Of a stretch of DNA of 36,200 bases, positions 6,805 to 34,388 are shown one piece after another. Made by a program: the position numbers and the translations under genes. Position 1 is the stretch's first letter. Each line of letters opens with the position of its first letter. The notes beneath the pieces are model-generated. The model saw nothing but the letters and a program-made list of their open reading frames with translations, made no database searches and was not told the origin of the DNA. Source of the DNA: Chthonomonadaceae bacterium (lineage in GTDB: Bacteria; Armatimonadota; Fimbriimonadia; Fimbriimonadales; Fimbriimonadaceae); assembly GCA_016788345.1 (NCBI GenBank), contig JAEURO010000004.1:1-36200 (forward strand). Reading direction: 5' to 3'.

Positions 6805-7529
6805 TTTCTCCGGGCCCGCGAAGATCCGAAGCCAAAGCGGGAAAGCACCTGGCGCCCGCTGCTCGACACGAGAAAAGAAATAAAGCGTTTTGCAACCGGT
6901 TTGTTTCGAGAGTCCAAAACCACGGCTACGGGGTAGTCCGCCACAACGTTAAATCTGTCAGGGATCAACACTTCCTTGACCCTCGTCCGCGCTGACCAGG
7001 CGTCCGTCTGATACACCACACCAGCGTCGGCCTCACCTAGCGCGACTTTGGCAAGCACTGATCGTACGTCAGGTTCCCGGGACACAATGTGGCCTCGCAC
7101 CTTGTTCAACCAAAAATTCCCATAGGCCTTTGCAGCCTTAGCAAGGAACTCATCTGCGTACTCCCCTGCAGGTACGGATTCCCCTGCCAACACAATTTTC
7201 GTCACTTTCGACAACTCCCGGACAGTGCTGACACCCTTCCTGCCCTTCGCCAAAACCAGTGTCAGCTTGTTCGTCGCGAACAAGGTCGGGACTGCGGTGT
7301 ATGGGCTGGCAACTGACATTGTCTTCATTGAGGCAGTTGCGAGCACATCGGCCCTGGCTCCGTTTTTCACTTGCGCCGCCAGGGTTTGTGACCCGGCAAA
7401 GCTAAAAACAACTTTCACACCAGGTTCGCGGCTTTCGAAGGCATCTGCGACGGATTCAAACGCGTCTTTCAGCGATGCGGCAGCAAACACGGTCAAGGAA
7501 GCAGTCGTCAACGCGAAAGCCGCTATCAT
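6801..7529 (-). CDS. modA: Molybdate-binding periplasmic protein ModA
   Basis: A 242-residue solute-binding protein of the ModA family. The N-terminus MIAAFALTTASLTVFAAAS is a short signal peptide running into the mature start LTVFAAASLKDAF, a hallmark of ModA. FSFAGSQTLAAQVKNGARAD with its Ser/Ala oxyanion-binding loop and the later VALGEADAGVVYQTD segment are also family-typical. It captures molybdate in the periplasm and hands it to ModB. The ATG at 7529 is preceded by a TAAACT box 9 bases away and by no Shine-Dalgarno sequence. The signal peptide is short for a Gram-negative protein, but no upstream in-frame start is evident. Confidence 0.93.
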   Translation of the reverse strand: MIAAFALTTASLTVFAAASLKDAFESVADAFESREPGVKVVFSFAGSQTLAAQVKNGARADVLATASMKTMSVASPYTAVPTLFATNKLTLVLAKGRKGVSTVRELSKVTKIVLAGESVPAGEYADEFLAKAAKAYGNFWLNKVRGHIVSREPDVRSVLAKVALGEADAGVVYQTDAWSARTRVKEVLIPDRFNVVADYPVAVVLDSRNKPVAKRFISFLVSSSGRQVLSRFGFGSSRARRK

Positions 7530-7538
7530 CGTCGCTTC

Positions 7539-7544
7539 AGTTTA
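7539..7544 (-). promoter_or_regulatory. Candidate -10 box, modA
   Basis: Read on the minus strand this is TAAACT, ending 9 bases before the modA ATG. No -35 match was seen. A start of transcription 6-8 bases downstream would give an almost leaderless message. Confidence 0.35.
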
Positions 7545-7606
7545 CACTTGGGCTTTCACATTCCATCGTCGAATTCGGGTAAAAGTCGCTTGGAACAGGA
7601 TGTCCG

Positions 7607-8788
7607 ATGGTTGTAGTTTTGAGTTTGGCGGCAGTCATGGCCGCAAATGAAAAAAACATGACGTTTGCAGAAGACGTGGCCTTTTTGAAGAAGCACACGA
7701 ACGCGATAGTCTTGAAAGGCGAAGTTGGTGCCGCCGTCGCAGTTGTGCCCGCATATCAATGCCGCGTCATGACGAGCACGACTTCGGTGAAATCCGGTGA
7801 AGGTTTTGGGTGGATCAATTACAAGCTGATTTCCAGCGGCAAGGTTCAAAAGCATATCAATGTTTATGGTGGAGAAGACCGGTTTTGGCTCGGCCCAGAA
7901 GGCGGACAGTTTTCCATCTTCTTCAAGGACTTTGCCCCTTTCGACCTTGAACATTGGCAGACACCTGCCCCCATCGACACCGATGCTTACAAAGTCGTCC
8001 AGCGGTCTGATTCGAGCGTGACATGCATGCACCAGTTTCGACTGGTGAACAACAGCGGAACTCCGTTCGACGTGAAGGTTGATAGGACGGTGGCACTTAT
8101 TGGCCGTGTAAAGGCCACGGGCCTTCTCGGTGTTCCCGATATGGGTGGCGTCCAGATGGTTGGCTATGAGACCCGAAACACCGTCACAAACATTGGCAAA
8201 GCCGCATGGACAGAAATGGACGGCGCCTTGTCGATCTGGATCCTCGGTATGTTCAAACCAAGTCCCACAACGACGGTCATCCTGCCCTACAACACATCCG
8301 GCGACGGGAGAGTTGTCAATGACACCTACTTTGGAAAGGTGCCAGCAGAAAGGCTGAAGGTCAGTGACGGGTTGGTCCTCTTTTCAGGTGACGGCAAGAT
8401 GCGCACGAAAATTGGACTGCCTCCTTCTCGTGCCAAAGACGTCGTCGGCAGCTACGACGCCTCTCGCAACCTGCTGACGATTGTTAAGTTCACCTTCAAT
8501 CCCGAAGCGACATCATATGTCAATTCAATGTGGGAGCTCCAAGACAAGCCGTTTGGTGGCGATGTCACGAACAGCTACAACGACGGGCCACCAAAGCCGG
8601 GTGCCAAACCTCTTGGGCCCTTTTATGAATTGGAAACTTCGTCGCCAGCCATGTTCCTTTCACCTTGGGCCTCGCACACGCATCTGAGCCAGACGTTCCA
8701 CTTTACTGGACCACGTGAAGCCCTCGACAAGATTTCCATGAAAGTCCTCGGGGCCGAGCTAGACGCCGTCTCCAAGGCGTTCAAATGA
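7607..8788 (+). CDS. Secreted/periplasmic beta-rich protein, DUF6786-like
   Basis: A 393-residue protein that I associate with the DUF6786 family, remembered from planctomycete- and Bacteroidetes-type genomes; function unknown. It begins MVVVLSLAAVMAA, a short hydrophobic leader, followed by TFAEDVAFLKKH and the block VAVVPAYQCRVMTS. Further blocks are FGWINYKLISSGK, HINVYGGEDRFWLGPEGGQ and SIFFKDFAPFD, which together resemble a galactose-mutarotase-like beta-sandwich. The C-terminal half has ELETSSPA and HLSQTFHFTG. An AGGA Shine-Dalgarno-like sequence lies about 7 bases before the ATG. Its stop overlaps the apt start in an ATGA arrangement, making it the first gene of a six-gene run to dapF. 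Carbohydrate binding or isomerisation is a guess from fold only. Confidence 0.75.
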   Translation: MVVVLSLAAVMAANEKNMTFAEDVAFLKKHTNAIVLKGEVGAAVAVVPAYQCRVMTSTTSVKSGEGFGWINYKLISSGKVQKHINVYGGEDRFWLGPEGGQFSIFFKDFAPFDLEHWQTPAPIDTDAYKVVQRSDSSVTCMHQFRLVNNSGTPFDVKVDRTVALIGRVKATGLLGVPDMGGVQMVGYETRNTVTNIGKAAWTEMDGALSIWILGMFKPSPTTTVILPYNTSGDGRVVNDTYFGKVPAERLKVSDGLVLFSGDGKMRTKIGLPPSRAKDVVGSYDASRNLLTIVKFTFNPEATSYVNSMWELQDKPFGGDVTNSYNDGPPKPGAKPLGPFYELETSSPAMFLSPWASHTHLSQTFHFTGPREALDKISMKVLGAELDAVSKAFK

Positions 8789-14082: not shown

Positions 14083-14769
14083 TTGTCAGAATATCTCGAC
14101 GTGCTTAATGGACAAATTGTATCGTGCGACCGTTGCCCGAGGTTGCGCGAGTGGTGTCTTAATGTCGCCAAAAGTAAGAAGAGAGAGTTCTTGGACGAGG
14201 ATTACTGGGGTCTCCCTGTGCCAAATTTCGGAGACCCTTTGGGAAAAGGTCTGATTCTTGGGCTCGCTCCGGCTGCACATGGTGCCAACAGAACTGGCCG
14301 CATGTTCTCAGGCGACCGGAGCGGGGACTGGCTCTACGCTGCGCTGCATTCTGCTGGCTTGGCGAACACACCTGACAGCAGAGACATGACCAATGGCCTG
14401 ACGTTGAGTAACGTCTTGATCACGGCCACATGCCACTGCGCCCCGCCAGACAACAAACCGACCCGAGAGGAAATCGAGAACTGCGCCCCATATTTGGCAA
14501 GCCTGCTTGCGAACAATCAGTTCCGAGCGGTCCTATGTCTGGGTTCATTGGCTTGGACATCGGCCCTGTCCCACTTTAGGGTGAGGCCGAAGCCCAAGTT
14601 CGGGCATGGATGCGAAACGGTCGCTGACTCAGGGCAGACCTTGCTAGGGTCTTACCATCCCAGCCAACAGAACACTTTCACCGGCAAGCTGACGAGGGAC
14701 ATGCTCGACGACGTGGTCGCAAGGTTCGCAATGCTCATCGATCCATCTACTTCTTCGTCGGATCGTTGA
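14083..14769 (+). CDS. Type-5 uracil-DNA glycosylase (UDGb-like)
   Basis: A 228-residue family-5 uracil-DNA glycosylase, which removes uracil (and often hypoxanthine and other deaminated bases) from DNA. The catalytic motif 1 is [16 protein letters not shown] (about residues 60-75) followed by GDRSGDWLY; motif 2 is [15 protein letters not shown] near the C-terminus. Four cysteines suited to a 4Fe-4S cluster are C15, C18, C119 and C134 (CDRC and [16 protein letters not shown]). Start TTG at 14083 is the only in-frame start that keeps the first Cys pair. The C-terminus overlaps the convergent aspartyl protease gene by 23 bases, which is a longer overlap than for other pairs here. Confidence 0.93.
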
Positions 14770-15922
14770 CCAGTTGTATTCGTTCAATCTCGTGTCGGAT
14801 CAGCTGACCCTCTCGAGACAAGTCGAGCTTGACCTTTGAGCCAACCTTCCCTTCCAGAAGCGATCTCACGGCACGATAGCTCATGTGATCCACATCCAGG
14901 CCATCCACGCTCAAGAGGTCATCTCCCCGCTTGACCCCGGCTTTGTCGGCAGGGCCATCCGGCATGACCGAATAGATCCTCATCCTCTTTCTCCTGGGAT
15001 CCTTGAACGCGAGGACACCAATCGCCCCGGGCTCCTCGTCATTGCGCGTCCCCGTGTAGTTTTCAAACAGCACGCGCCTGTGGGCCAGGTCGATGGTCAG
15101 GTTGAAGTTACGAAGGAACCTGAACCCTATTGTCCCATCATGGTCTGCCGCGCTACTTGGAAGGTCGATGACCGAAAAGACCGGTTTTTCGACAGGGATA
15201 CCAAAGATTTTGAGATCGGGCATCGCCACATAGAACGTGTCAACTGGGCCAGAAGCCACGACAGACTGTGTCATGAAAGCAGCCTTCTTGCCTTCGGGCC
15301 AGAATTTTTCGCGTTCAAGCACATCACGATGGGTCGTAGCGTATCCTGAGTTGCCAGTGTCTAAGGCCATGACAAGCTTTTCTCCTTTCGGGCCTTGCAC
15401 GCTCAACTCCATCGAGTTGTGCCCTAGCGGAAGGAGCTTTGCCAAAAATGACCGAGTGTTGTCTGGCGTGGTTTGGGTCAGATCAAGAGAAGGGTCGAGG
15501 AAGATAATTTTTTTCTTCTCAAAATTTATTTGAAACGGGCCATCTTTGAACGGCTCCAGACCAAGGATCCCATCACAGTGGACACCATACGCCAGAGAGT
15601 AGTGCTCAGACGGCTGTTGGACAGCCTCCAAGCCCGTGACCTTGACCATACGGTCACCAATTTTCATCGTTTTGATTGGGACGGTCTTCACTTGGAACGC
15701 TCCGACAAAGTCTTGGAGCGAGATCGTCCCTGTCGGTTTGCCAATGTCCAGCTGATCGCCTAAGACAACAGCCCCGGCAAAACCAGTGTCGAACATGAGC
15801 GAGGCCGGCTTACCGTTGACTTCGACATTAATGATGATCGCGTCCTCACCGATCGTGAACGGCACCTCTTGCAGGCTTGAATGGCCCGTGCCTGCAATTG
15901 CAAAAAGTATTCCTATGACCAT
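14747..15922 (-). CDS. Secreted two-lobed aspartyl protease with PDZ domain
   Basis: A 391-residue exported protein. After a signal-like N-terminus ([13 protein letters not shown]) come two aspartyl protease lobes: FDTGFAG (D45) and ALDTGNSG (D188), each with the hydrophobic-D-T-G signature and downstream LGxEPF / [11 protein letters not shown] strands. A PDZ domain at about residues 300-385 follows ([20 protein letters not shown], then [12 protein letters not shown]). The fold is that of retropepsin-like proteins, but two DTG motifs in one chain imply a pepsin-like pseudo-dimer. It would act outside the cytoplasm on peptides or on a surface protein. The start is placed at ATG 15922; the longer frame to 16084 would run into the divergent liv gene. 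Confidence 0.88.
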
Positions 15923-16017
15923 GGACTTGCCCTGCAGATTACAACGTCCGGGGCAAGACAAACATTTCTCGAGTCCCGAGTGTGTCCTGACATAGACCTC
16001 TAGGCTTGCATATCGCG

Positions 16018-16023
16018 TATACT
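16018..16023 (+). promoter_or_regulatory. Candidate -10 box of liv operon
   Basis: TATACT about 53 bases before the livJ ATG, in the 154-base divergent region between the protease and the liv operon (15923-16076). No good -35 was found. An AGGTG ribosome site at 16061-16065 serves the GTG/ATG cluster that follows. No riboswitch or Lrp-like palindrome was evident in the region. Confidence 0.4.
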
Positions 16024-16076
16024 CCGAACACTTTTGATCAGGGCCGTCTCGGCCTGTTCGAGGTGCAACAGTGGTG

Positions 16077-17375
16077 ATGCGCAAAACAATTAATATAGCA
16101 AGCTTTTTTGCCCTGGCGACTTCAATCGTCCTCGGCGCTTACGGTTGTAAAGACAGCGGAGCCAGCGGCAGTACCGCTGGAACAACTGGTACGACCGGCT
16201 CAAATTCGACGGCAGGCGGAGAAACTGCAGGCAGCGGGGGCACGACGGGTTCGGGCCGCAAAGACCCAGCAAAAGATGGCTCTGACATTGGGGAACCCAT
16301 CAAGATCGGACTTGTCGCCAGCCAAAATGGCGACTTGAAGCCGTGGGGTGACGACTGCGTGAAGGGCGCCAACATGGCTGTCGACGAGATTAATGCCGCG
16401 GGCGGGATCAACGGGAAAAAAGTTCTTCTCTTGACTGAAGACAGTAACAGCGATCCTGTCGCAGGTAAGAACGCTGCCTCTAAGCTGGTGACCGACGGAT
16501 GTGTTGGAATCCTTGGCGAAGTGGCCAGTGGCATCACGCAACAGATGGCCAACGTGGCCTTTGACGCTGGATTGCCGATTGTTGCCGTCGGTGCGACAAG
16601 GACGGACATATCGGACATTGGTTCGAACTTCTTCCGCGTTTGCTACACGGACGACTTTCAGGGCCCGGTCATGGCGAAGTTCGCCTACGACTACCTGAGC
16701 CTTCGCAACGTAGCGATCATGACGGACAACAAGCAGCCTTATTCGGTTGGCCTTAGTGACTCGTTCCGAAAAGCCTTCGAAGGCTATGGCGGCAAGATTG
16801 TCGACGAACAGAAATACCAGTCCAAGGAAACGCAGTTTTCAAGCTATATCTCAAACATGAAGTCCAAAAGCCCTGACGGAGTGTTTTTGAGCGGATACTT
16901 CACAGAGGTCGGCCCGATCGTCAGTCAAATGCGGGCTGCGGGACTCAACATGCCCGTCCTCGGTGGCGACGGATGGGACAGCGCCCAGTTGCAGACCTCG
17001 GGTGGCCAGGCCATCGTGGGTGGGTTCTTCTGCAACCACTACAACAACGAAGAGAAGCGGCCAGAGGTTCAAAAGTTCTTGGCCGATTGGAAAGCGAAAT
17101 ATAGTGGAGTGCCTGGCACGACGATGGGGGCACTGGGCTATGACGCTGCCAAGCTCCTGTGCGACGCGATCAAGCGCGCAATGGACAAGGGCGGTAAGAA
17201 ATCCAAGGACATCAGTGCGGCTTTGGAAGACACGAGCGACTTTGCAGGTGTCAGCGGTAAGGTCACTCTTAAAGGCATGAAGGGCAACCCTGCCAAGCGG
17301 GCCCTTGTTGTCAAGGTCACCGCCAACGGGACAACATTTGAAAAGGCGTACGAACCCGAGGAACTTGCAAAGTAA
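16077..17375 (+). CDS. livJ: Branched-chain amino acid ABC transporter, substrate-binding lipoprotein
   Basis: A 432-residue type-I periplasmic binding protein of the Leu/Ile/Val-binding family. It has a lipoprotein signal ending at GAYGC (Cys about 24), then a Gly/Ser/Thr-rich linker of about 40 residues, and the binding domain beginning PIKIGLVASQNGDLKPWG, followed by INAAGGINGKKVLLLTED and VLGGDGWDSAQL, all typical of LivJ/LivK. The linker would hold the domain away from the membrane. GTG-GTG-ATG stand in frame at 16071-16079; ATG 16077 is chosen because MRKTIN gives a normal signal start, but GTG 16071 is spaced better from the AGGTG. It heads the operon livJ-livH-livM-livG. The true ligand may be another amino acid or amide. 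Confidence 0.93.
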   Translation: MRKTINIASFFALATSIVLGAYGCKDSGASGSTAGTTGTTGSNSTAGGETAGSGGTTGSGRKDPAKDGSDIGEPIKIGLVASQNGDLKPWGDDCVKGANMAVDEINAAGGINGKKVLLLTEDSNSDPVAGKNAASKLVTDGCVGILGEVASGITQQMANVAFDAGLPIVAVGATRTDISDIGSNFFRVCYTDDFQGPVMAKFAYDYLSLRNVAIMTDNKQPYSVGLSDSFRKAFEGYGGKIVDEQKYQSKETQFSSYISNMKSKSPDGVFLSGYFTEVGPIVSQMRAAGLNMPVLGGDGWDSAQLQTSGGQAIVGGFFCNHYNNEEKRPEVQKFLADWKAKYSGVPGTTMGALGYDAAKLLCDAIKRAMDKGGKKSKDISAALEDTSDFAGVSGKVTLKGMKGNPAKRALVVKVTANGTTFEKAYEPEELAK

Positions 17376-18560
17376 TTGCTTCATGACACACTGAACCTTG
17401 TGGCAGGACTCGATTTTTCGATCCTGCCACAACAGTTAGTGAACGGCCTCCTCTTGGGCTCGGTTTACGCCCTGATCGCACTAGGCTACACGATGGTCTA
17501 TGGAGTCTTGCGGCTCATCAACTTTGCCCATGGCGAGGTCTTTATGCTCGGATCTTATGCCGCGCTCTTCACTTCATGGTCGCTCGGGTTTTCGCCCGAG
17601 GCATTAGCCGGCCAAGACAAGCCGTCCTCGTGGATCAATCTTGTCTTGATGTTGGTTGTCAGTATGGTCGTATGCGGACTCATCGGCATGGCCATTGAAT
17701 TCCTGGCGTATCGGCCGATGCGGAACCAGCCTCGGATCGCCTCATTAATCACTGCCATTGGGGTCTCGCTGTTCATTCAATATGCCGGCGGCTTGTTCCT
17801 ACCCCAGTCTCCACCCCCGGCAATCAGCGAGCAAGTCAACCCCTATCGGAACGAAAAGGTGACGGTCACGCTTGCACCGCCGCCGCAAGACTTAGTGGTC
17901 CAAGCCAAGGACGCAAGGGCCAAGGCTGACCAAATGGACAAAGCTTATGAGGCGGCCAAAGCCAAAGGCGATCCCACCTCGCTCGAATCCATGCGTCAGG
18001 AAACTCAAGCCGCTAAGAACGCGGCCTCCAACCTTGAGACACAGGTCGCATCTAAGTCCACCGGACTCACTGTCCCTTATGGCCAACTCGGGATGCTCCT
18101 GACAACTCTAGTTTTGATGGCCTTACTATGGTTCATCGTGCAAAAGACGAAGACGGGCCGAGCCATGCGTGCCGTGGCTCACGACTTTGATTCTGCCGCC
18201 CTCATGGGAGTCAACGTTGGCCGGATCATCACGATCACGTTTGTCATTGGGTCAGCACTCGCTGGGGCGGGCGCGATGATGTATGCGACAGTACTGAGAA
18301 CACCACTGACGCCGTTCCTAGGCGTCACTCCTGGCGTCAAGGCGTTCGTCGCAGCCGTCTTAGGGGGAATCGGCAACATCCCTGGTGCTGTGCTTGGCGG
18401 AATTCTGATGGGGATCGTCGAGACGCTGGTGGTCTGGCTAGATGGTGTTGTCCCGGGACTTAGCGGATATAAAGACGCTGTCGCATTCGTCGTTCTGATT
18501 GCCGTGCTTCTCTTTAGGCCTGGCGGCCTTTTGGGATCATCTAAGGTGGAAAAGGTATGA
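17376..18560 (+). CDS. livH: Branched-chain amino acid ABC permease LivH with charged insert
   Basis: A 394-residue permease of the LivH family. The N-terminal half shows QQLVNGLLLGSVYALIALGY, the YGVLRLINFAHGEVFMLG block and FLAYRPMRN; the C-terminal half has VQKTKTGRAMRAVAHDFD (EAA-type loop) and AVLGGIGNIPGAVLGG. LivH proteins are usually near 290-310 residues. Here about 85 extra residues stand between the central helices (about 145-232), including an Ala/Lys/Asp/Gln-rich segment at 172-228 predicted as a helical coil. Start is TTG directly abutting the livJ stop (17373-17375); a GTG eight codons in is an alternative. It overlaps livM by 4 bases. Confidence 0.9.
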   Translation: MLHDTLNLVAGLDFSILPQQLVNGLLLGSVYALIALGYTMVYGVLRLINFAHGEVFMLGSYAALFTSWSLGFSPEALAGQDKPSSWINLVLMLVVSMVVCGLIGMAIEFLAYRPMRNQPRIASLITAIGVSLFIQYAGGLFLPQSPPPAISEQVNPYRNEKVTVTLAPPPQDLVVQAKDARAKADQMDKAYEAAKAKGDPTSLESMRQETQAAKNAASNLETQVASKSTGLTVPYGQLGMLLTTLVLMALLWFIVQKTKTGRAMRAVAHDFDSAALMGVNVGRIITITFVIGSALAGAGAMMYATVLRTPLTPFLGVTPGVKAFVAAVLGGIGNIPGAVLGGILMGIVETLVVWLDGVVPGLSGYKDAVAFVVLIAVLLFRPGGLLGSSKVEKV

Positions 18561-19774
18561 AGTTTTGGGGCGTCAGGGGAGTCTCGATTCTTGCTGGGCT
18601 GGGCTTTGCCTTCGGCTTGGAAACGATGGTCTCAGCCGGCCTCCCCAACATCTATCGTCTTGTTGTCTTGGCTGGTCTCTTCATAACCCTGGCAGTCAGT
18701 CTTAACCTGATCAACGGGATTACAGGCCAATTTTCTATCGGCCACGCCGCCTTCTATATGGTCGGTGCTTACTCTGCTGGATTCGTTTCGAACCAGTTTT
18801 ACGCGCAGCAGAGTTTGGGCCCGCAGCTTTGGCTCGTAGTCATGATGGTTTTCGGAGCCTTTATGGCTGGAATCTCTGGCTTCGTTGTCGGACTGCCTAG
18901 CCTTCGGTTGCGCGGTGATTACTTGGCCATTGTCACGCTTGGGTTTGGGGAGATCTTGCGGATCGTCGTGCAGAACATCGCCCCGCTTGGAGGGGCCTAT
19001 GGGATGAATGTCAAGCCCTTCGGTTCGCCACCAAAAGCCATCTGGATCGTTTGGACTTTGGCAATGGTCTGTATTGCGGTATGCCGGAACCTCTTGCGAA
19101 CTGCGCACGGCCTTCCATTTTTGGCAGTCCGCGAGGACGAAGTGGCCAGCTCAGCGATGGGGGTGAACGTTCCCAAAACTAAGGTCACATCGTTCGTGAT
19201 CGGTTCAGCGTTTGCAGGCGCAGCCGGTGCGCTCTTTGCCCTTTATGACACGTTCATTTCGCCGGACACGTTCAAAATGGACGTGTCCTTCATCATTCTG
19301 ACAATGGTGGTCCTCGGCGGCACGGGCTCGATCACCGGCTCCGTCTTGGCTGCCGTAGCGCTTTTTGCCATTCCTGAATGGTTGCGGACACTTCAAGACC
19401 CTGTGACAAAGGTGGCCATCCAAATCCCTGGCCCTTCTCTTGTCGCGACCATGTTGGCTGTCATCGTCGCAGTTGCTCTGGTGAAGCTGATCCAGGACAG
19501 GTTCTACGGTGACAAAGGAAAGAAGCTGGGCCTCTATGTTGGAGCCGTCGGTGCCGGTGTGGCCGTTCAATTCCTCCTTGCTGCCTTGCTGAAAGGAGTG
19601 CCACAGCTTGCCAAGTTGTCATTCGAGGCGGCAGCGCTCAGAATGGTGATATTTTCAGCCACATTGATCATCTTGATGCTCCTTCGGCCCCAAGGCATCC
19701 TGGCGCACCACGAGTTCAGTTGGGCTTGGGTTTCCAAGCTTTTCGGCCGAAGACCAAGCGAGGCTAACGCATGA
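18557..19774 (+). CDS. livM: Branched-chain amino acid ABC permease LivM
   Basis: A 405-residue permease of the LivM family. It shows LNLINGITGQFSIGHAAFYMVGAY, broken here into LINGITGQFSIGHAAF and the following helix, then VGLPSLRLRGDYLAIVTLGFGEI, a classic LivM motif, and VREDEVASSAMGVN (coupling loop) and VVLGGTGSITG. About ten hydrophobic segments are visible. It pairs with LivH to form the channel. It is coupled to livH and to livG by ATGA overlaps. C-terminal extra helices (about residues 300-390) make it somewhat longer than many LivM proteins. Confidence 0.93.
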   Translation: MKFWGVRGVSILAGLGFAFGLETMVSAGLPNIYRLVVLAGLFITLAVSLNLINGITGQFSIGHAAFYMVGAYSAGFVSNQFYAQQSLGPQLWLVVMMVFGAFMAGISGFVVGLPSLRLRGDYLAIVTLGFGEILRIVVQNIAPLGGAYGMNVKPFGSPPKAIWIVWTLAMVCIAVCRNLLRTAHGLPFLAVREDEVASSAMGVNVPKTKVTSFVIGSAFAGAAGALFALYDTFISPDTFKMDVSFIILTMVVLGGTGSITGSVLAAVALFAIPEWLRTLQDPVTKVAIQIPGPSLVATMLAVIVAVALVKLIQDRFYGDKGKKLGLYVGAVGAGVAVQFLLAALLKGVPQLAKLSFEAAALRMVIFSATLIILMLLRPQGILAHHEFSWAWVSKLFGRRPSEANA

Positions 19775-20547
19775 GCGAGAAACCCGTTGTCTTGTCGCTG
19801 GACAAGGCGACCATACAGTTTGGTGGACTCATTGCTGTCAACAGCGTCACTTTTGACCTCTATAAGGGCGACTTGTTTGGCCTCATCGGGCCGAACGGTG
19901 CAGGGAAAACCACATGTTTCAATCTCATTACTGGAGTCTATAAGCCAACTTCTGGAAGCATCAAATTCAATGGAAAGGAAGTCGGAGGCTTGGCTCCTGC
20001 CAAGATAGCGGAAATGGGGATCTGTCGCACATTTCAAAACATCCGGCTCTTCCCTGCCCTCTCTGTGTTAGAAAACGTCGTAGTAGGGGCTTACCTTCGG
20101 CACAAGACCAGCGTCTATGGGGCATACACCTACCTTCCTCCTGCGATCAATGAGACGGAATCGCTGAAGAAAGATGCTATGGACTTATTGGAAGTCATGG
20201 ACTTGGCCGATATGGCGGGGAGCCGTTCGGCTGACCTGCCCTATGGCAAGCAGAGGAGGTTGGAAATCGCCCGGGCGATGGCGACCAAACCTGACCTCAT
20301 ATTGCTCGACGAACCGGCTGCGGGAATGAACCCTCAGGAAAAAGAGGACCTTCAAGCCACAGTCCGACGCATCCGGGACGAGTTCGGAAAAACAGTGTTG
20401 CTCATTGAACACGATATGAGGTTCGTCATGGGTTTGTGTGAGCGCATTGTGGTCTTGGACCATGGCGAAGAGATTGCCCAAGGGTCGCCCGAAGCGATCC
20501 GGAGCGATCCTAAAGTCATCGAGGCCTATTTGGGCGAAGCTGTCTGA
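19771..20547 (+). CDS. livG: Branched-chain amino acid ABC ATPase LivG
   Basis: A 258-residue ABC ATPase of the LivG type. It carries Walker A GPNGAGKTT (about 40-48), the LivG-specific ICRTFQNIRLFPALSVLENV, the signature-region LPYGKQRRLEIARAMA, Walker B LILLDEPAAGMNP and the His switch LLIEHDM. The signature reads YGKQ in place of LSGGQ, as in many LivG. It powers transport through LivHM from the cytoplasmic side. Normally a LivF ATPase follows; here a serpin gene follows after 41 bases, and no livF is in the window, so the second ATPase is elsewhere or LivG acts as a homodimer. Confidence 0.94.
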   Translation: MSEKPVVLSLDKATIQFGGLIAVNSVTFDLYKGDLFGLIGPNGAGKTTCFNLITGVYKPTSGSIKFNGKEVGGLAPAKIAEMGICRTFQNIRLFPALSVLENVVVGAYLRHKTSVYGAYTYLPPAINETESLKKDAMDLLEVMDLADMAGSRSADLPYGKQRRLEIARAMATKPDLILLDEPAAGMNPQEKEDLQATVRRIRDEFGKTVLLIEHDMRFVMGLCERIVVLDHGEEIAQGSPEAIRSDPKVIEAYLGEAV

Positions 20548-20588
20548 CTATCCTGGGTCGAGAAGGCTGTTTAGGCCATATTCATGCC

Positions 20589-21818
20589 ATGGTTCGCCGC
20601 CTAGTAACCTTAAGTCTTGCTCTGATTTCGGCTGGGTGCAAGATGATGGCTCCCCACGATTCCTATGTAGAGCCCCGACGGAACCTTGGTCTTGCAAAAG
20701 CAACTTCCGCATTGACTGCTGAAGACCGGGCCTATCTAAGGGAACGGTCTGCATTCGCGTCCAAATTGGCCACAGCAATGAAGTTGGGCGCGGATGGACA
20801 AAACGTCTGTGTCTCTACCTTTAGCGTCGATCTAGCGTTGTGCATGTTGGCCAACGGTTCGCAAGGAAACACCTTTGACGCCCTGGCAAAGTGCTTGTCT
20901 TGGAAGGACGCCAGGGTTGACAAGTTCAACTTGGCCAACAGTCGCATTCTTGACCTCTTAGCAAGCGAGCCTGGCGCAGAAGTCAGAGTTTCCAATTCGA
21001 TCTGGAATGTCATACCCGTCCAGTTCAAGAAAAACTATCAAGCCGACATGGAGAAACACTACGCGGCGCAAGTCAAGAAACTTGGTTCGGCAGGCGAGGG
21101 CGCGCTGAAGCAGGTCAACGATTGGGCGAAATATCGAAGCAATGGTCGAATCACGAAGATAATTGATAGTTTAGATAAGAGTACTTATACAATACTAGTA
21201 AGCATGTGTACTTTCGACGGCACTTGGCCCGAACCACTTACTCGTAAGAGTGACCGAGTTTTCATCGGGATCTCCGGGGCGAGGAGGACTCCTTTCGTCT
21301 CATCAGACCGCTTGGGAGAGTCCTTTACTTTCCCTGGGGGGACGGGCGTCCGGGTCCCCTATGCGGACTCGACTCTTAGTCTAAACCTTCTTTTGCCACA
21401 AGCCGGTTCTCCGCCAATGACTGTACTTTCTGCGCCTGCCTTGAAGGCTGTGCTAGATCGACAGAGCACTGATAAATGCAGCTTTGAATTTCCAATCTTT
21501 AACATATCAAGTGCTCTGGACATTCGTGACCCTATTCGGTCATTGTGCGGCGACACGCTGTTTGACGCAGGAGAAGACTTTAAGCCGATGTCGCATGCCG
21601 AAATTTCCGAAGCGAAAATAAGTCTAATGATCCACAGGACATGGATCAAGGTCGATGAGAATGGAACTAAGGCGGCGGCCGGTACAGCAACAGTTGTCAA
21701 AGGTGGCGAGGTGCCAAGTGCTCCAAAAAAGATTGTTTTCGACAGGCCTTTCGCCTTTGTGATCCTCGAAGAGGAGACAAAAGTTCCCCTTTTCCTAGGC
21801 GTAGTCAACCAGCCTTAG
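20589..21818 (+). CDS. Serpin-family lipoprotein (protease inhibitor)
   Basis: A 409-residue serpin with a lipoprotein-like signal (MVRRLVTLSLALISAGC, Cys 17). Serpin landmarks are VCVSTFSVDLALCMLANGSQGNT (shortened here to STFSVDLAL and ANGSQGNT), VSNSIWN, the hinge DENGTKAAAGTATVV at about residues 356-370, and the terminal FDRPFAFVILEEETKVPLFLG. The hinge has Gly, Thr and three Ala at P15-P10, the pattern of inhibitory serpins, so it likely traps serine or cysteine proteases. By spacing to FDRPF, the scissile bond should lie near residues 371-375 (KGGEV). It would sit outside the cell membrane. It follows livG closely and may be co-transcribed. A short AT-rich run at about 21145-21215 differs from the surroundings. 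Confidence 0.92.
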   Translation: MVRRLVTLSLALISAGCKMMAPHDSYVEPRRNLGLAKATSALTAEDRAYLRERSAFASKLATAMKLGADGQNVCVSTFSVDLALCMLANGSQGNTFDALAKCLSWKDARVDKFNLANSRILDLLASEPGAEVRVSNSIWNVIPVQFKKNYQADMEKHYAAQVKKLGSAGEGALKQVNDWAKYRSNGRITKIIDSLDKSTYTILVSMCTFDGTWPEPLTRKSDRVFIGISGARRTPFVSSDRLGESFTFPGGTGVRVPYADSTLSLNLLLPQAGSPPMTVLSAPALKAVLDRQSTDKCSFEFPIFNISSALDIRDPIRSLCGDTLFDAGEDFKPMSHAEISEAKISLMIHRTWIKVDENGTKAAAGTATVVKGGEVPSAPKKIVFDRPFAFVILEEETKVPLFLGVVNQP

Positions 21819-22825
21819 TACCGGCAGACGCGAAGTGCCGCTTCTGTGATTTTGTTCACGCTTGGGAGCACAAACGATTCGAGCGGCTTGACCCACGGAA
21901 CGGGTGTGTCTAGCCTGGTCACGCGCACCGGAGGGGCATCCAGGAGATCAAATGCCCTGTCACTCATTCGGGCCACGATTTCACCCGCAAATCCGCATGT
22001 CATTGGAGCCTCGTTGACGACGACCAAACGGTTGGTCTTCTTCAACGATTCCAAAATAATGTCTTCATCCAAAGGCACCAAGGATCTGATATCAATAACT
22101 TCAGCGCTAAAACCTTCACTCATCAAGTTATCTGCGGCCTGGAGACAGTGGTAAACGTTGTTCCCATATGTAACGATCGTGACGTCTTCTCCCTCGCGTC
22201 GAACTACGCCTTTTCCGAGAGGGACAAGGGCCTCGTCGTTGGCTTTTAGAACTTCAGAAATCTTATTCTGCCGGTAGAGCTCCTTCATTTCATAGACCAT
22301 CACGGGGTTGGGATCCCGGAAAGCGGCCTTTAGCAGTCCTTTTGCGTCGGCGGGAGTTGATGGGCACACAATCTTTAGTCCAGGTGAGTTTGCGAACCAT
22401 GCCTCGTTCATCTGACTGTGATAGAGGGCGCCTCCCCCATAACCCCCGGCTGGGCCACGGATGACCATGTTGATCGCGACTTCGCCAGCAGTACGGTAGT
22501 GGTAGGTCGCCGTCATATTCACAATCTGGTCGAAACCGGTAGAAATGAAGTCAATAAACTGCATCTCGACCATCGCTTTCTTGCCATTGAGGCACATGCC
22601 GCACGCGACCCCTACGATCGCGGCCTCGCTGATTGGCGCGTCGATAACCCGGTCCGGGCCGAACTTCTCCTTTAGCCCCTCGGTGACACCAAAAGCACCA
22701 CCTAAGAACCCAATGTCTTCACCGATGGCAATGACGTTTGGATCGGATTCAAACTCCTCGAAAATGGCCTCTTTGAGGCCCGTGAGGTAGTTCTTTTTGA
22801 GTCCCGGTTCAGCTACTGACATCAA
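21815..22825 (-). CDS. 2-oxoacid dehydrogenase E1 component, beta subunit
   Basis: A 336-residue E1-beta of the pyruvate/branched-chain 2-oxoacid dehydrogenase family. It shows the start LKEAIFEEFESDPNVIAIGEDIG, GVTEGLKEKFGPDRVIDAPISEAAIVG (in parts), MVEMQFIDFI, and GGYGGGALYHSQMNEAWFA; the C-terminal half has DIRSLVPLDEDIILESLKKT and NEAPMTCGFAGEI. With E1-alpha it decarboxylates a 2-oxoacid with thiamine diphosphate and acylates the E2 lipoyl arm. Whether it prefers pyruvate, branched-chain acids or acetoin is not readable with certainty; the SEAAIVG and YHSQ motifs fit all. Its ATG overlaps the end of E1-alpha by 4 bases. E2 and E3 genes are absent from the window. It shares interlocked stop codons with the serpin. 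Confidence 0.93.
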   Translation of the reverse strand: MMSVAEPGLKKNYLTGLKEAIFEEFESDPNVIAIGEDIGFLGGAFGVTEGLKEKFGPDRVIDAPISEAAIVGVACGMCLNGKKAMVEMQFIDFISTGFDQIVNMTATYHYRTAGEVAINMVIRGPAGGYGGGALYHSQMNEAWFANSPGLKIVCPSTPADAKGLLKAAFRDPNPVMVYEMKELYRQNKISEVLKANDEALVPLGKGVVRREGEDVTIVTYGNNVYHCLQAADNLMSEGFSAEVIDIRSLVPLDEDIILESLKKTNRLVVVNEAPMTCGFAGEIVARMSDRAFDLLDAPPVRVTRLDTPVPWVKPLESFVLPSVNKITEAALRVCRY

Positions 22826-23961
22826 TTATCCTCCCGATACACCCACATGCCGCCCTCTTCAGCTTCTGGCAGGGGCGAGTTCACAGCAAACTCTATGCCT
22901 TCGCTCAGATACTGGACGACTTCTGGCGGAAAATCATCGTTACTCACCTCGGACGCGCCTTTTCCTTCTGCAACCCAGTTTGCGGCTTCCTTTTGAGTCA
23001 TGTGCCCCTCGGCCACCATGATTCGCTTCATGACCGCAATAGGATCTCTGGCTCGTCCCTCATCGACCTCTTCTTTCGGCCGATACTTGGCGGCTCGGTC
23101 GTCGTCATGGTCCCCGTGGCCGTAGGCCCGGAAAGTCTTGCACTCGACAATAGATGGACCCTTGCCTGATCTTGCCCAGGCGACCGCCTCCATGACCTTG
23201 TCGTACACATCGAGAACATTTTGACCGTCAGCGACCAAGCCCGGGATGCCGTATCCATCTGCGCGGCGGGCGAAGTCATCCATAGAGAATTCGAGGTATG
23301 TCGGAGTGCCATAGGCCCACTGGTTGTTCTCTATGATCGTAACGACTGGCAACTTATGTACAGCAGCGAAATTCACTGCCTCATGGAAGACTCCTTGGGC
23401 GGTCGATCCTTCACCATTGTAGGTGAGGACAACGGCGTCGCCTCCATCGAGCCGGTCGGCATAGACAACTCCCGCTGCGGCGGGGATTGTTCCAGCCAAC
23501 ATGGAAGTGGAATGGATGATCCGCTTGGCCGACGACCCGATGTGCGACCAATTGTCCCTCGCCCTGCCTGGTGAGTCGACCCGGCCCCACACCTGGGCAC
23601 AGACTGTTCCAACGCTCATTCCCATCCGGTCTGGATTCCGCCAGCCAGCGCGAAAATCTTTCATAAAGAAGGCGGGCATATCGCGGTGGATCGGGCTGAT
23701 CCAATCAGTCGGCTTGAGCCCAAAAAGCGAGCCGACGATAATGGCCTCTTGGTTGTGGCTTGAATATAGGGTCCCGGTCAGCCGCCCACGCTTTTTCTCT
23801 TTAATGAGTCGGACATCGAAGTAGCGGGCCAAGTAGAGCTGCAAAAGCAATTCTTGGAAATCAGACTTTGACAGCTTGGAACTGAACGCTCCAAGCTCGA
23901 ACGATTCTTGTTTGGTTTTCCGCTGGTCGGCTTCTGTTGTGGCCAAGTGTTCTATCTCCAA
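22822..23961 (-). CDS. 2-oxoacid dehydrogenase E1 component, alpha subunit
   Basis: A 379-residue E1-alpha. The thiamine diphosphate motif is NGEGSTAQGVFHEAVNFAA (about 182-200) ending in IIENNQWAYGTP; the first loop has Glu where many have Asp (G-D-G). Other hallmarks are GTLYSSHNQEAIIVG, ISPIHRDMPAFFMK and the phosphorylation-loop-like ECKTFRAYGHGDHDDD. The HRD and the long N-terminus are more like branched-chain E1-alpha than pyruvate E1-alpha. The start is TTG at 23961; no in-frame ATG precedes it before the next stop that fits. A TATCCT box lies 20 bases upstream. It is the first gene of the E1 operon and lies divergent from the aminotransferase gene. Confidence 0.93.
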   Translation of the reverse strand: MEIEHLATTEADQRKTKQESFELGAFSSKLSKSDFQELLLQLYLARYFDVRLIKEKKRGRLTGTLYSSHNQEAIIVGSLFGLKPTDWISPIHRDMPAFFMKDFRAGWRNPDRMGMSVGTVCAQVWGRVDSPGRARDNWSHIGSSAKRIIHSTSMLAGTIPAAAGVVYADRLDGGDAVVLTYNGEGSTAQGVFHEAVNFAAVHKLPVVTIIENNQWAYGTPTYLEFSMDDFARRADGYGIPGLVADGQNVLDVYDKVMEAVAWARSGKGPSIVECKTFRAYGHGDHDDDRAAKYRPKEEVDEGRARDPIAVMKRIMVAEGHMTQKEAANWVAEGKGASEVSNDDFPPEVVQYLSEGIEFAVNSPLPEAEEGGMWVYREDN

Positions 23962-30993: not shown

Positions 30994-32177
30994 GTCCGAG
31001 CCAAGATCTTTTCTCTGCTAAAGAGGATCAAAGCGATCTTCAATGCAATAACTGCCAAGACAACCGACACTCCAGCCGCAGACGCTATTCCTGCCCAGTT
31101 AGATTTTTCTAACAGGGCTTCCTTAAGACAAAGAGAACTTCCAAGGATGGGGACGAACTTGATACCTGCAGTCTTGTCCAACCCGGTGAACCCTAAGACA
31201 GTGCTAGAAACTGCCGGCAAAATAACAACAAGGTTAGCTACATTCAAGTAGGACTGCGCCTCCCGAACGCTTTTTGCAAGTGCGCTCAAACAAAGCAGGA
31301 TTGCAGCAGTCATGAGGGCCAGAGGCACGACAATAACAAGCAAAGCTATCGCGGACTGAAAAGACAAATTGATCCCTTCTGGAAACAGGGCCTTTGAGTT
31401 TCCGACCCCAGTCGCCCCGACCAACAGGAGTGTCAATAGGCTTGTCGAACTGCTAATAAGGCTCACGACTGCCAGGGCCAAAAACTTGCCAATTGCCACG
31501 CCACCCCTAGTGGCCGGGCTCAGCAGTAATGTTTCAAGAGTTCCCCGCTCTTTCTCTCCTGCGACAATGTCGGCAGCAATGACCATTGCGCCGGAAAATG
31601 TCCAAAGTACTATCAAATAAGGAAGTAAAGATGAAAACGCGGAAGCGCCAAGGCCCTTTGGAGCCTCAGCCTCTATTTTTTCAAACTTGATGGGCTCCAT
31701 TTGTGACTCAGGCACGCCAAAAGATTTGAGCCTCTGTATTATGCTTTCTCTATTGATGACTGAAATGGCAGACTCAATGACTTTTAAGGATATCTCGGAC
31801 ATTGGAGCAGCGGAGTCAAAGATAGCTGTCGCTTTTTGCTGAAACTGCTTGTCCGATCCTGCTTTTCGAGGTTCAAACTCCAGCACCAACGCAACTTTCC
31901 CACTGCGCAAGAGCTTCCGACCCTCGTCTTGAGACTTAACGAAAACTATGCTTTTTGAAATCGACTTGACCAATGTGTCAATTTCCGGATCCATTGTGCT
32001 TCCGACAATTGCGAACGTCTGCTCTTTTTTCTTCGACACGCCGGACGTGATGGTTCCGAACATCATGACAAAGATAAAAACGAAGAATGCAGGCATCACA
32101 AAAGCGCCAGTCCTAAACCGTTTGTCTCTAAAGATCTCTCTAATCTCTTTTTTGAAAACTAAGCTCCAATGGCTCAT
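30990..32177 (-). CDS. ABC-2 type permease, NatB-like
   Basis: A 395-residue permease. It has a first membrane helix after KEIREIFRDKRFRTG (a NatB/ABC-2 N-terminal motif), then an extracytoplasmic domain of about residues 45-185, and five or six helices in the C-terminal half including AGEKERGTLETLLLSPATR, the ABC-2 coupling element. NatAB exports sodium in Bacillus; other members export drugs or have no known substrate. Its start overlaps the ATPase gene stop by 4 bases. The gene pair appears richer in A and T than neighbouring genes. Confidence 0.9.
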   Translation of the reverse strand: MSHWSLVFKKEIREIFRDKRFRTGAFVMPAFFVFIFVMMFGTITSGVSKKKEQTFAIVGSTMDPEIDTLVKSISKSIVFVKSQDEGRKLLRSGKVALVLEFEPRKAGSDKQFQQKATAIFDSAAPMSEISLKVIESAISVINRESIIQRLKSFGVPESQMEPIKFEKIEAEAPKGLGASAFSSLLPYLIVLWTFSGAMVIAADIVAGEKERGTLETLLLSPATRGGVAIGKFLALAVVSLISSSTSLLTLLLVGATGVGNSKALFPEGINLSFQSAIALLVIVVPLALMTAAILLCLSALAKSVREAQSYLNVANLVVILPAVSSTVLGFTGLDKTAGIKFVPILGSSLCLKEALLEKSNWAGIASAAGVSVVLAVIALKIALILFSREKILART

Positions 32178-32926
32178 TGGTTAGCCACCTCCGAACGATA
32201 GCCAACCAAACTTAGAAAGGCTGATTCCAAGGTCGATGATCCTGTCGCGCCAAGTATCTCTTGCAAGGAACCCATGGCAAGGCGCTTCCCTTTGTGAACA
32301 ATAGCAATGTTATCGCAAATCCTTTCTGCTTCCGACATAATGTGAGTGCTGAACACGACAGTTTTTCCTTGGGCCTTTGACAATTCAATGAACTCAAGTA
32401 CAGTTTGCGATGTGACGACATCGAGCCCTGCGGTAGGTTCGTCGAAGAAGACCACTGGCGGGTCATGCAAGATGGCGCGTGCAATGCTGATTCTTTGCTT
32501 CTGTCCAGTGGACATTTTGTCGCATAACTGACCGTAATAATCACCAAGATCGAGAGTTTCTGTAACGTAGTTGATTCTAGATCTTAACTTATTGCCGTCT
32601 AATCCATAGAGGCTTCCAAAGTATTCCAAACATTCCAGCCCTGTCAATCTGCTATAGAGCGCCGTGGACGTGGATAGGAAGCCTATAGACTCTCTAACCT
32701 TCTGCGAGTCCGCCGACACGTCTAGGCAATTGATCATAGCTTTGCCCCTACTCGGTTTGAGAAGAGTGGATAGCATTCGGAGTATTGTCGTTTTTCCGGC
32801 GCCATTGACGCCTAGCAGCCCAAAGGTTTGGCCCGGCTTTGCCTCAAAACTCATGTCCTCGACAGCACAGATTTTCCCTTTCTTAGGGTCAAAGAAGTCT
32901 TTGCCGATTGATTCTACGAGAACCAT
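32174..32926 (-). CDS. ABC transporter ATPase, NatA-like
   Basis: A 250-residue ABC ATPase. It shows Walker A GVNGAGKTTILRML, the signature-like KMSTGQKQRISIARAIL, Walker B PVVFFDEPTAGLD, and STHIMSEAERICD. The signature reads MSTGQ in place of LSGGQ, as is common in NatA/CcmA-like proteins. It forms the energising partner of the NatB-like permease downstream. A TACCTT box ends 4 bases before its ATG. Substrate unknown; sodium export is the best guess from family resemblance. Confidence 0.92.
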   Translation of the reverse strand: MVLVESIGKDFFDPKKGKICAVEDMSFEAKPGQTFGLLGVNGAGKTTILRMLSTLLKPSRGKAMINCLDVSADSQKVRESIGFLSTSTALYSRLTGLECLEYFGSLYGLDGNKLRSRINYVTETLDLGDYYGQLCDKMSTGQKQRISIARAILHDPPVVFFDEPTAGLDVVTSQTVLEFIELSKAQGKTVVFSTHIMSEAERICDNIAIVHKGKRLAMGSLQEILGATGSSTLESAFLSLVGYRSEVANQ

Positions 32927-32975
32927 TTATAAGGTACTACTGATACATCATCGAGACCGTTGCACAGCTCAAGTC

Positions 32976-34388
32976 TTACTGTTTAGGTTCTCTCGGCATC
33001 AACGTTTCTGCACTTGCGAGGTTGTAGCATGTGACTGCGGCCGCAGTGCTGGACTGGACCATATACATGTTGATCGCCGACGCCAGTTTGTCGTGCTGAG
33101 TGTGATGGATGTAATTGTAGTCATGGACACCGGTTTCGATAGTGAAGAAACCTGGAACGCCCACAGCATTAAAACTAGCGTGGTCGCTTCCCCCTCCACG
33201 AGGCATGCGGGCTTGTGCCGAAAACTTCATGGGTAAGTCTGGAAAAGCAGCGTTCAAGGCGGTGATCGTCGGCTCGAACATGGATCGTTGGCTCTCGATT
33301 CCGACGAACCCTCCCCAATAATTAGTGCCGCCGTCGTCGACCAAGCAACAGCTGATCTTATCCATTTCAGCGGCGTGATCCTTGACATAGCCCCTTGATC
33401 CAAACAGGCCCTGTTCTTCACCAGACCACAGGATGAAGCGGATGGTTCGTCGAGGCTTGACTCCTAGTGTACATAGGATCCTGGCGCACTCCATTGTCAC
33501 AGAAGATCCTGTGCCATTGTCCAGCGCACCCTGTGAACCTGGCCCATCCCAGCTGTCGTAGTGTCCACTAACAATTACCACTTCATCTTTTTTGTCGGTA
33601 CCGGGAATCTCGGCGATGACGTTATTGATCGCGATGGGCCCCTTTCGAAATGCTTGTTTGATGTCGAATTCTAGCCTCACTGGCTTGCCAGATTTCAACG
33701 CTTCGGTGACAGCGTCATAATCGCTCTTACGGATCGTCACTCTTGGGGTCTTCGGTAGCTTGTCCCACGTAACGTTGTAGTTTCCACTCGTGATGACAAG
33801 CTCGCCACGGGTTCCGGTAACCAATCCCTTGATTCCAGCACCCTGGAGAGCGTTTTGAAGCTCCTCCCGAGCCTTGGCATCGGGGGATTGCGCGCCGCCT
33901 TGTCGCCCTCCGCCAGCCAGCGAGGGCATCAGCACCCAAGCACCCTTGTAGCTGGCCTTGTTCTTGTTAAATTCTTCTATGTTCGCAGGGCCAAGCACTG
34001 CGGGCCCCTTCTGCAAACCCTTTGTGCCAGGCGTCCATGACGGAGTCGTAAACTGAAATTCACGCTGGAAAGGCGAAGACATTCGCCCCACGTGCCCCCA
34101 TGGCCCTCGGTCGAATCCGACTTGCCACTCGCCCCACTTTTCTAAATGCACGTTTTCGCAACCCCACGACTTGAATTTGTCCATTGCCCATTGTTGTGCC
34201 GCTTCGAGGTGGCTGGATGAAGTCAGCCGTGATCCAAACTGCTCACATATTGACTCTAAGATCAACCGAGTCTGGTTTCGGGACTTGCCCTCTTCAATGA
34301 TTTTTGCAACGGTGTCCGCGTCACCTTGGCCGAAAGCTGGGCTGACTAGGACCGCAGTCAGCGACAAAATGAGAGCACGTGAAGTCAT
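32976..34388 (-). CDS. Secreted M28-family zinc metallopeptidase with PA-like insert
   Basis: A 470-residue exported peptidase. Signal peptide MTSRALILSLTAVLVSPAFG precedes a mature domain. A PA-type insert lies at about residues 125-245. The M28 zinc ligands are H276 (SGHYDSWDG), D290 (ALDNGTGSS), E324/E325 (WSGEEQGLFGS), D351 and a late His (about H428-H429). M28 enzymes are mostly aminopeptidases or carboxypeptidases (glutamate carboxypeptidase II type). It would degrade peptides outside the cytoplasm, providing amino acids. Start ATG 34388. It lies downstream of the carboxyltransferase gene on the same strand, with a 68-base gap. Confidence 0.92.
   Translation of the reverse strand: MTSRALILSLTAVLVSPAFGQGDADTVAKIIEEGKSRNQTRLILESICEQFGSRLTSSSHLEAAQQWAMDKFKSWGCENVHLEKWGEWQVGFDRGPWGHVGRMSSPFQREFQFTTPSWTPGTKGLQKGPAVLGPANIEEFNKNKASYKGAWVLMPSLAGGGRQGGAQSPDAKAREELQNALQGAGIKGLVTGTRGELVITSGNYNVTWDKLPKTPRVTIRKSDYDAVTEALKSGKPVRLEFDIKQAFRKGPIAINNVIAEIPGTDKKDEVVIVSGHYDSWDGPGSQGALDNGTGSSVTMECARILCTLGVKPRRTIRFILWSGEEQGLFGSRGYVKDHAAEMDKISCCLVDDGGTNYWGGFVGIESQRSMFEPTITALNAAFPDLPMKFSAQARMPRGGGSDHASFNAVGVPGFFTIETGVHDYNYIHHTQHDKLASAINMYMVQSSTAAAVTCYNLASAETLMPREPKQ

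Follow-up and report, generated by a model that had tools for sequence, protein, structure and literature searches.

A gene for a serpin with a lipoprotein signal, located behind a liv operon in a member of the Fimbriimonadaceae, raises the question of whether its product guards the cell surface against proteases, as the original prediction had proposed, or if the gene is maintained for something else. The window, which is the complete stretch of DNA analyzed here, comprises 36,200 nucleotides. The gene and its signal are located at the following positions.

20589..21818, + strand: serpin gene, an ORF with an ATG start, 409 aa, and a PF00079 match
20589..20639, + strand: signal peptide with the lipobox ISAGC, assigned by sequence and pattern, with Cys17 (20637-20639) as the predicted lipidated residue

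The PF00079 match in the Pfam scan (E 3.8e-56) reached 191 bits compared to a cut-off of 27 and covered profile positions 4-370 of 370, which rules out chance; an NCBIfam scan of the protein gave no match. Structure prediction had been named, together with a hinge alignment, as a check of the original prediction, and the AlphaFold2 model displayed a complete serpin fold (pLDDT 86.4, pTM 0.88), with pLDDT values below 50 limited to mature residues 1-6 and 346-362 in the N-terminus and the loop. The top structural match of the model was tengpin (Z 43.1, rmsd 2.4, 366 residues), followed within 1 Z by an antithrombin entry (Z 42.2) and then by miropin (Z 41.9). Full-length match and model both bear out the assignment as a serpin. 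The predicted lipoprotein signal is likewise in place: ISAGC with Cys17 fits a PS51257-like pattern, and the protein would probably be exported across the inner membrane and held there by a lipid tether on Cys17. This serpin was the sole one found in its genome (2.56 Mb, 317 contigs, 88.7% complete), which contained no other PF00079 match. A single-sequence search yielded no close relatives in named genomes, and the nearest serpin of the family shared 37% identity with the window copy.

The surroundings of the gene are composed of the following features.

14747-16084: aspartyl protease-PDZ gene
16071..17375, + strand: livJ-type binding protein gene (PF13458)
17376..20547, + strand: livH, livM, and livG, with livG assigned by Pfam and livH and livM by order and conserved neighbourhood
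21815-22825, − strand: E1-beta dehydrogenase gene, convergent with the serpin gene, with a 4-base ORF overlap
22822-23961, − strand: E1-alpha dehydrogenase gene, also convergent with the serpin gene
32976-34388: M28 peptidase gene, ~11 kb from the serpin gene

The liv operon said to lie beside the serpin gene is present, with livJ and livG confirmed by Pfam and livH and livM named by order. The gene order is livJ-livH-livM-livG, serpin, and then E1-beta and E1-alpha facing the serpin gene; 41 bases separate the end of livG from the serpin start codon, both on the + strand. In liv operons, the livF ATPase gene usually comes after livG. Here, livF is absent after livG (20548-21814), and the serpin gene occupies that spot; the second-best listed match to livG in this genome shared 37% identity and was located on a different contig. 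The livH-type permease (17376-18560) is, at 394 residues, longer than the usual LivH and contains a charged, coiled-coil-like insertion of ~80-90 residues (PYRNEKVT...VASKSTG). The aspartyl protease-PDZ gene is divergent from livJ, a position also conserved in loci L033, L037, L043, L046, and L150, the last of these in a genome (G055) without a serpin match. The GC content decreased to 0.47-0.48 at 31001-33000, over an ABC-2 type transporter pair. No promoter- or terminator-like sites were found around the serpin gene, which says little. A liv-serpin operon as a general functional unit was dismissed, since genus g32 has the serpin gene opposite to livJ in each of its eight genomes.

Of the 85 family genomes, 79 were covered by loci at livG, at E1-beta, or at both. 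As judged with a lineage serpin profile, a serpin-derived ORF adjoins livG, livJ, or E1-beta in 25 of 26 genomes from ten genera. In the 26th genome, G034, a tandem serpin gene stands between the two, and the clade serpin gene, ~3.2 kb away from E1-beta, shares its strand. All 26 genomes thus kept the gene, with two partial ORFs among them (G050, cut by a contig end, and G084, interrupted by N). In the other 59 family genomes, the clade profile matched a serpin in 26, one of them (G075) weakly; in the total of 85 genomes, 44 were serpin-positive by Pfam alone and 52 by the clade profile. In a search of 291 genomes of the phylum for loopless forms outside the family, every match with an E value below 1e-20 came from the family itself; the weaker matches in other families reached 2.9e-13 at best.

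For the gene tree, 55 serpins were used with the loop columns left out, and a single branch separated from the rest 24 rows that had been chosen from the alignments, by place and by eye, before the tree was calculated (support 93/90, 92% of 200 bootstraps; 86 in a quick serpin tree). Not contained in the 55 rows were L042 and L193 (G050), both contig-cut, L174 (G084, interrupted by N), L116, and short fragments of G069, G057 (C100), and G054 (C85); L001, L047, L048, and L049 duplicate loci present under other ids. The excluded L116:4441-5952 (G007) is a serpin-like ORF 3′ of E1-beta, outside the clade, with a long Gly/Pro-rich stretch at the expected position of the reactive loop. A species tree from E1-beta and liv proteins, covering 70 of the 85 genomes with genera g17 (G049) and g24 (G059, G060) unrepresented, united 25 of the 26 genomes in one clade with a support of 100; G030, outside this tree, was assigned by genus code. 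The agreement of gene clade and species clade fits vertical descent. All 24 clade proteins possess a hydrophobic N-terminus at the chosen start, and 19 fit the lipobox pattern; LASC in L170, recognized by eye, is a 20th lipobox, and the remaining four have neither.

Position alone fails to define this clade. Four serpin rows from G001, G022, and G037, all three of them genomes outside the clade, are also located between livG and E1-beta, all with intact hinges (L213 in G001, L212 in G022, and L048 in G037, with two in tandem in G037), and they group in the tree among the other serpins and not with the clade. This indicates that the livG/E1-beta site of the serpin gene is probably older than the clade. 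In G006, G017, G018, G019, G024, and G055, livG and E1-beta abut with nothing between them.

Evaluation of the window copy as a possible inhibitor needs to consider its loop.

21657..21737, + strand: reactive centre loop, 27 residues, beginning with P17 (E357) and ending just ahead of FDRPF

From P17, the loop reads E357-N-G-T-K-A-A-A-G-T366-A-T-V-V-K-G-G-E-V-P, with P17-P8 from E357 to T366 and P15-P9 from G359 to G365. The G-T-x-A-A-A hinge had been read correctly (G T K A A A). The hinge alignment was made against the inhibitory consensus E[EKR]G[TS]x(AGS)4, as given in PMC2770083. The residues at P15, P14, and P12-P9 (G T K A A A G at P15-P9) match, and P16 is Asn instead of Glu, Lys, or Arg, which is the one departure from the strict consensus; exactly one mismatch was also present in 11 of the 31 other family serpins. 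Counting from the hinge places P1-P1′ at G373-E374, within the KGGEV stretch named as the P1 region, and Pro376 at P3′.

Serpins inhibit proteases in the manner of a mousetrap. Would such a loop serve as a trap? The window serpin could already be non-inhibitory, with the hinge as a relic on a mere serpin-fold scaffold. This would be in accordance with the Asn at P16, with Ser instead of Asn at the shutter position N186 (Asn in 28 of the 31 other family serpins), with Thr at P54 beside the shutter residues, with the odd P1-P1′ pair, and with the decayed hinge in the sister species. On the other hand, 8 of the 9 sites at P17-P9 fit the consensus or are free, with Thr at P8, and the shutter residues S53, S56, and H334, named by antitrypsin numbering, are kept as S, S, and H, as is W194; His at H334 is present in just three of the 24 clade members, the window copy among them. 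We regard the relic reading as quite unlikely. Asn at P16, Thr at P54, Ser at N186, Gly-Glu at P1-P1′, and the decay in the sister species nevertheless weigh against inhibition by the window protein, so that inhibition may occur but with no certainty, and that it traps a protease would be about an even bet.

The bait itself is not the usual one of the family, since in 24 other intact family serpins (27 minus three near-copies) Thr occupies P1 10 times and Ser or Ala occupies P1′ 18 times. Thr at P1 followed by Ser or Ala recurs in 10 of these 24, namely L002, L004, L006, L007, L009, L010, L014, L015, L018, and others, which are fast-diverging serpins. This recurrent Thr outside the clade hints at one conserved protease target.

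A target protease encoded in the window was ruled out for the 20 scanned proteins, none of which belonged to a serine protease family; the two non-serine peptidases mentioned in the original prediction, aspartyl protease-PDZ and M28, were both located. The search was performed genome-wide instead and revealed eight subtilase (S8) and three HtrA-type Trypsin_2 matches but no papain-family C1 match. Possible endogenous targets therefore exist. A simple guarding function falls short of the comparative evidence: 18 of the 24 clade members are without an intact hinge or loop, in G032, the sister species, the orthologue lost its hinge, and the gene is still kept in 26 of 26 genomes.

The distribution of loop states was as follows. 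In the clade, six serpins are intact by a lenient rule, the hinge is decayed in seven, and the loop is gone from 11 (n = 24); the other family serpins comprise 27 intact and four decayed ones (n = 31). The lenient rule lets P14 be Ala, by which L028 and L031 pass. Full matches to the strict consensus numbered 2 of 24 in the clade versus 14 of 31 in the others, and, with up to one mismatch, 4 of 24 versus 25 of 31. Fisher's p for the contrast in hinge states was 4e-6, with kinship ignored. Grouping by position alone, which added four rows (L017, L018, and two of L021), gave 10 intact, seven decayed, and 11 lost in 28 rows and 23 intact and four decayed in the other 27. Both states meet within sister pairs: the window genome G000 is intact and G032 decayed, and G033 is intact by the lenient rule, with two strict mismatches, and G034 decayed. 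For loop loss, the starred branches of the species tree force at least three changes, and a single origin of the loopless rows on the gene tree was marginally rejected (p-AU 0.035). Genome G034 contains two further serpins besides its clade copy, one in tandem, so the hinge change there may have come after duplication. In the tandem, L210:5690-6895 and 6931-8154, one copy has a near-consensus hinge, and the other is the clade orthologue, in which the hinge is decayed.

Such a distribution may arise if the serpin is a plain inhibitory lipoprotein with one target, and the loop was lost elsewhere with the target, leaving remnants to drift. The intact P15-P9 region, the complete fold, and a loop of 27 residues (23-32 in other intact family serpins) would be expected from such an inhibitor, as would the number of subtilases: five of the six intact-hinge clade members come from genomes with 7-9 S8 matches, and the genomes of the 11 loopless ones all have 1-4. 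This contrast rests on few clades, however, and is broken by G032 (11 S8, decayed hinge) and G029 (two S8, lenient intact). A family-wide link of intact serpins to the number of subtilases, with raw means of 7.0 versus 5.2 in 70 genomes, was rejected because nothing was left after kinship pairing (14 starred pairs, median p of 1).

Drift of the remnants is also hard to reconcile with the loopless copies, which are under purifying selection. Three loopless pairs had dN/dS values of 0.123, 0.088, and 0.172 at dS of 0.65, 0.71, and 1.49, the last being near saturation; the frames are unbroken in all 11 loopless rows, and the gene is present throughout the clade. The plain inhibitor with drifting remnants is, in our judgment, unlikely. 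In these loopless pairs, the liv and E1 genes had dN/dS values of 0.00-0.05, well below those of the loopless serpins, so that relaxed constraint is partly at work. For comparison, the decayed-hinge pair G043/G044 yielded 0.353 and an ordinary family serpin pair 0.17.

Alternatively, the protein may defend the cell surface against foreign proteases in an arms race that leads to fast sequence change. The serpin indeed diverges very fast beside its slow neighbours (18-37% identity to the window protein in the clade, compared to 71-85% for livG and E1-beta), and it possesses the lipobox. The dN/dS of 0.09-0.35 in the five measured serpin pairs speaks against it, and outright loop loss is contrary to what a race over the loop predicts, making such a defence very improbable.

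In the loopless rows, the loop was lost internally and the C-terminal strands were retained; a mid-domain part is also missing, and 9 of the 24 clade rows show a gap at the W194 column. The model of the loopless L069 protein (L069:11028-12059, − strand; CP021423.1, Uphvl-Ar1; pLDDT 83.7) had tengpin on top (Z 28.2, rmsd 3.4, 303 residues), on a par with several other serpins, although its alignment included ordinary serpins, which may bias the model toward the serpin fold. Six of the 11 loopless rows had no Pfam match and two (G045, G077) were below the cut-off. Because Pfam misses most of these rows, loopless serpin scaffolds may go unnoticed elsewhere.

What is kept instead of the loop may be seen in another region of the protein.

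21003..21125, + strand: W139-W179 with P143, G166, and the KLGSAG motif, defined by clade conservation and the model

Both P143 and G166 are present in 24 of 24 clade members but in only 2 and 1 of the 31 other family serpins, respectively, with L041 possessing both. In the window model, P143 falls in the turn that joins the strand at mature residues 114-124 to the helix at 132-142, and G166 in the turn from the strand at 145-148 to the helix at 154-167. By the usual serpin topology, these elements would be s2A, helix E, s1A, and helix F. All 11 loopless rows have Trp at position 142, and EM and LGS close by are largely retained. The area presumably corresponds to the flexible-joint region, which docks vitronectin in PAI-1, and it is probably a partner-binding face.

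Since 18 of 24 members are without an intact hinge or loop and all 26 genomes keep the gene, inhibition cannot explain its clade-wide retention. A serpin body that is kept in relatives that often lost the loop suggests a job that needs no trap. The reading that we prefer, and to which we give an even chance, is that the protein is a tethered serpin, the loop of which may still be a bait, and that the gene is kept clade-wide for a second, loop-independent function; it is the retention and the purifying selection that argue for this function. The ancestor of the clade would have been a tethered serpin with a working loop. A second job on another face of the serpin, already present or gained, would then have allowed loss of the loop without loss of the gene, with a partner probably docking at the face that bears P143 and G166. 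The window copy would have kept both loop and face. If its loop is a bait, cleavage would occur close to G373-E374, or the register may differ, with a cut after K371 for instance, and insertion of the cut loop into sheet A would catch a serine protease outside the cytoplasm, with a subtilase as the most plausible candidate. As a tentative extension, to which we give slightly less than an even chance, the serpin, single in most clade genomes, tethered, and in fixed surroundings, would have a loop-independent second function, and its orthologues would have switched several times in place from a trap to a loopless scaffold, mostly without a duplicate. The window copy would then be a dual-function stage, with its loop still there and a docking face that is already clade-specific.

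How does this protein compare with known serpins? The best PDB sequence match was the bacterial tengpin from Thermoanaerobacter tengcongensis (2pef/2pee/2vh4; E 2.5e-31). On the sequence alignment, both have the same length from the hinge to (D/N)RPF, but they share only 23% identity, and the window serpin differs by its lipobox, Asn at P16, Ser at N186, and the clade-specific P143 and G166. Miropin from Tannerella forsythia (5ncs), also bacterial and itself an example of the known lipoprotein serpins, aligned with the window model at a rmsd of 2.4 over 356 residues but is 22% identical and has a different loop, of which different peptide bonds are reportedly used. The bacterial chloropin from Chlorobium (8gxv) matched with a Z of 39.4. 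According to PMC10090351, it has a secretion signal, the hinge ExGTEAAAA, and Arg-Ser at P1-P1′, and it was demonstrated to inhibit thrombin and KLK7; the window serpin, a candidate inhibitor, differs by its Gly-Glu at P1-P1′.

Bacterial and non-inhibitory serpins are as such already known, as PMC8233489 and PMC2770083 indicate, and the former (Spence et al. 2021), which sorts prokaryotic serpins into groups S, T, and U, calls the role of serpins in many prokaryotes enigmatic. A literature search for serpins with Armatimonadetes returned only a paper on the lamb rumen and with Fimbriimonadaceae nothing. For serpins without a reactive centre loop, it returned only a set of microsporidian genes, a truncated cotton serpin, and SERPING1 mutations. 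The first are NbSPN11/12 of Nosema bombycis (PMC9820262). In the cotton case, GhSER02, one of two orthologues is truncated to 172 residues by a premature stop (PMC12463063); the loopless clade serpins lost the loop internally instead and keep the C-terminal strands.

The clade of liv/E1-beta-linked serpins with mixed loop states appears to be new, judged by these literature searches. Its series from a near-consensus hinge to no loop at all is a natural experiment on what all copies bind. As in the Drosophila serpins described in PMC2770083, the serpin fold is retained after hinge loss. For Drosophila, however, inhibitory and non-inhibitory serpins are not reported there to occur within one set of orthologues, whereas the Fimbriimonadaceae clade has both hinge states in one orthologue set, together with 11 loopless members, and would run counter to this rule from the fly if its intact copies inhibit.
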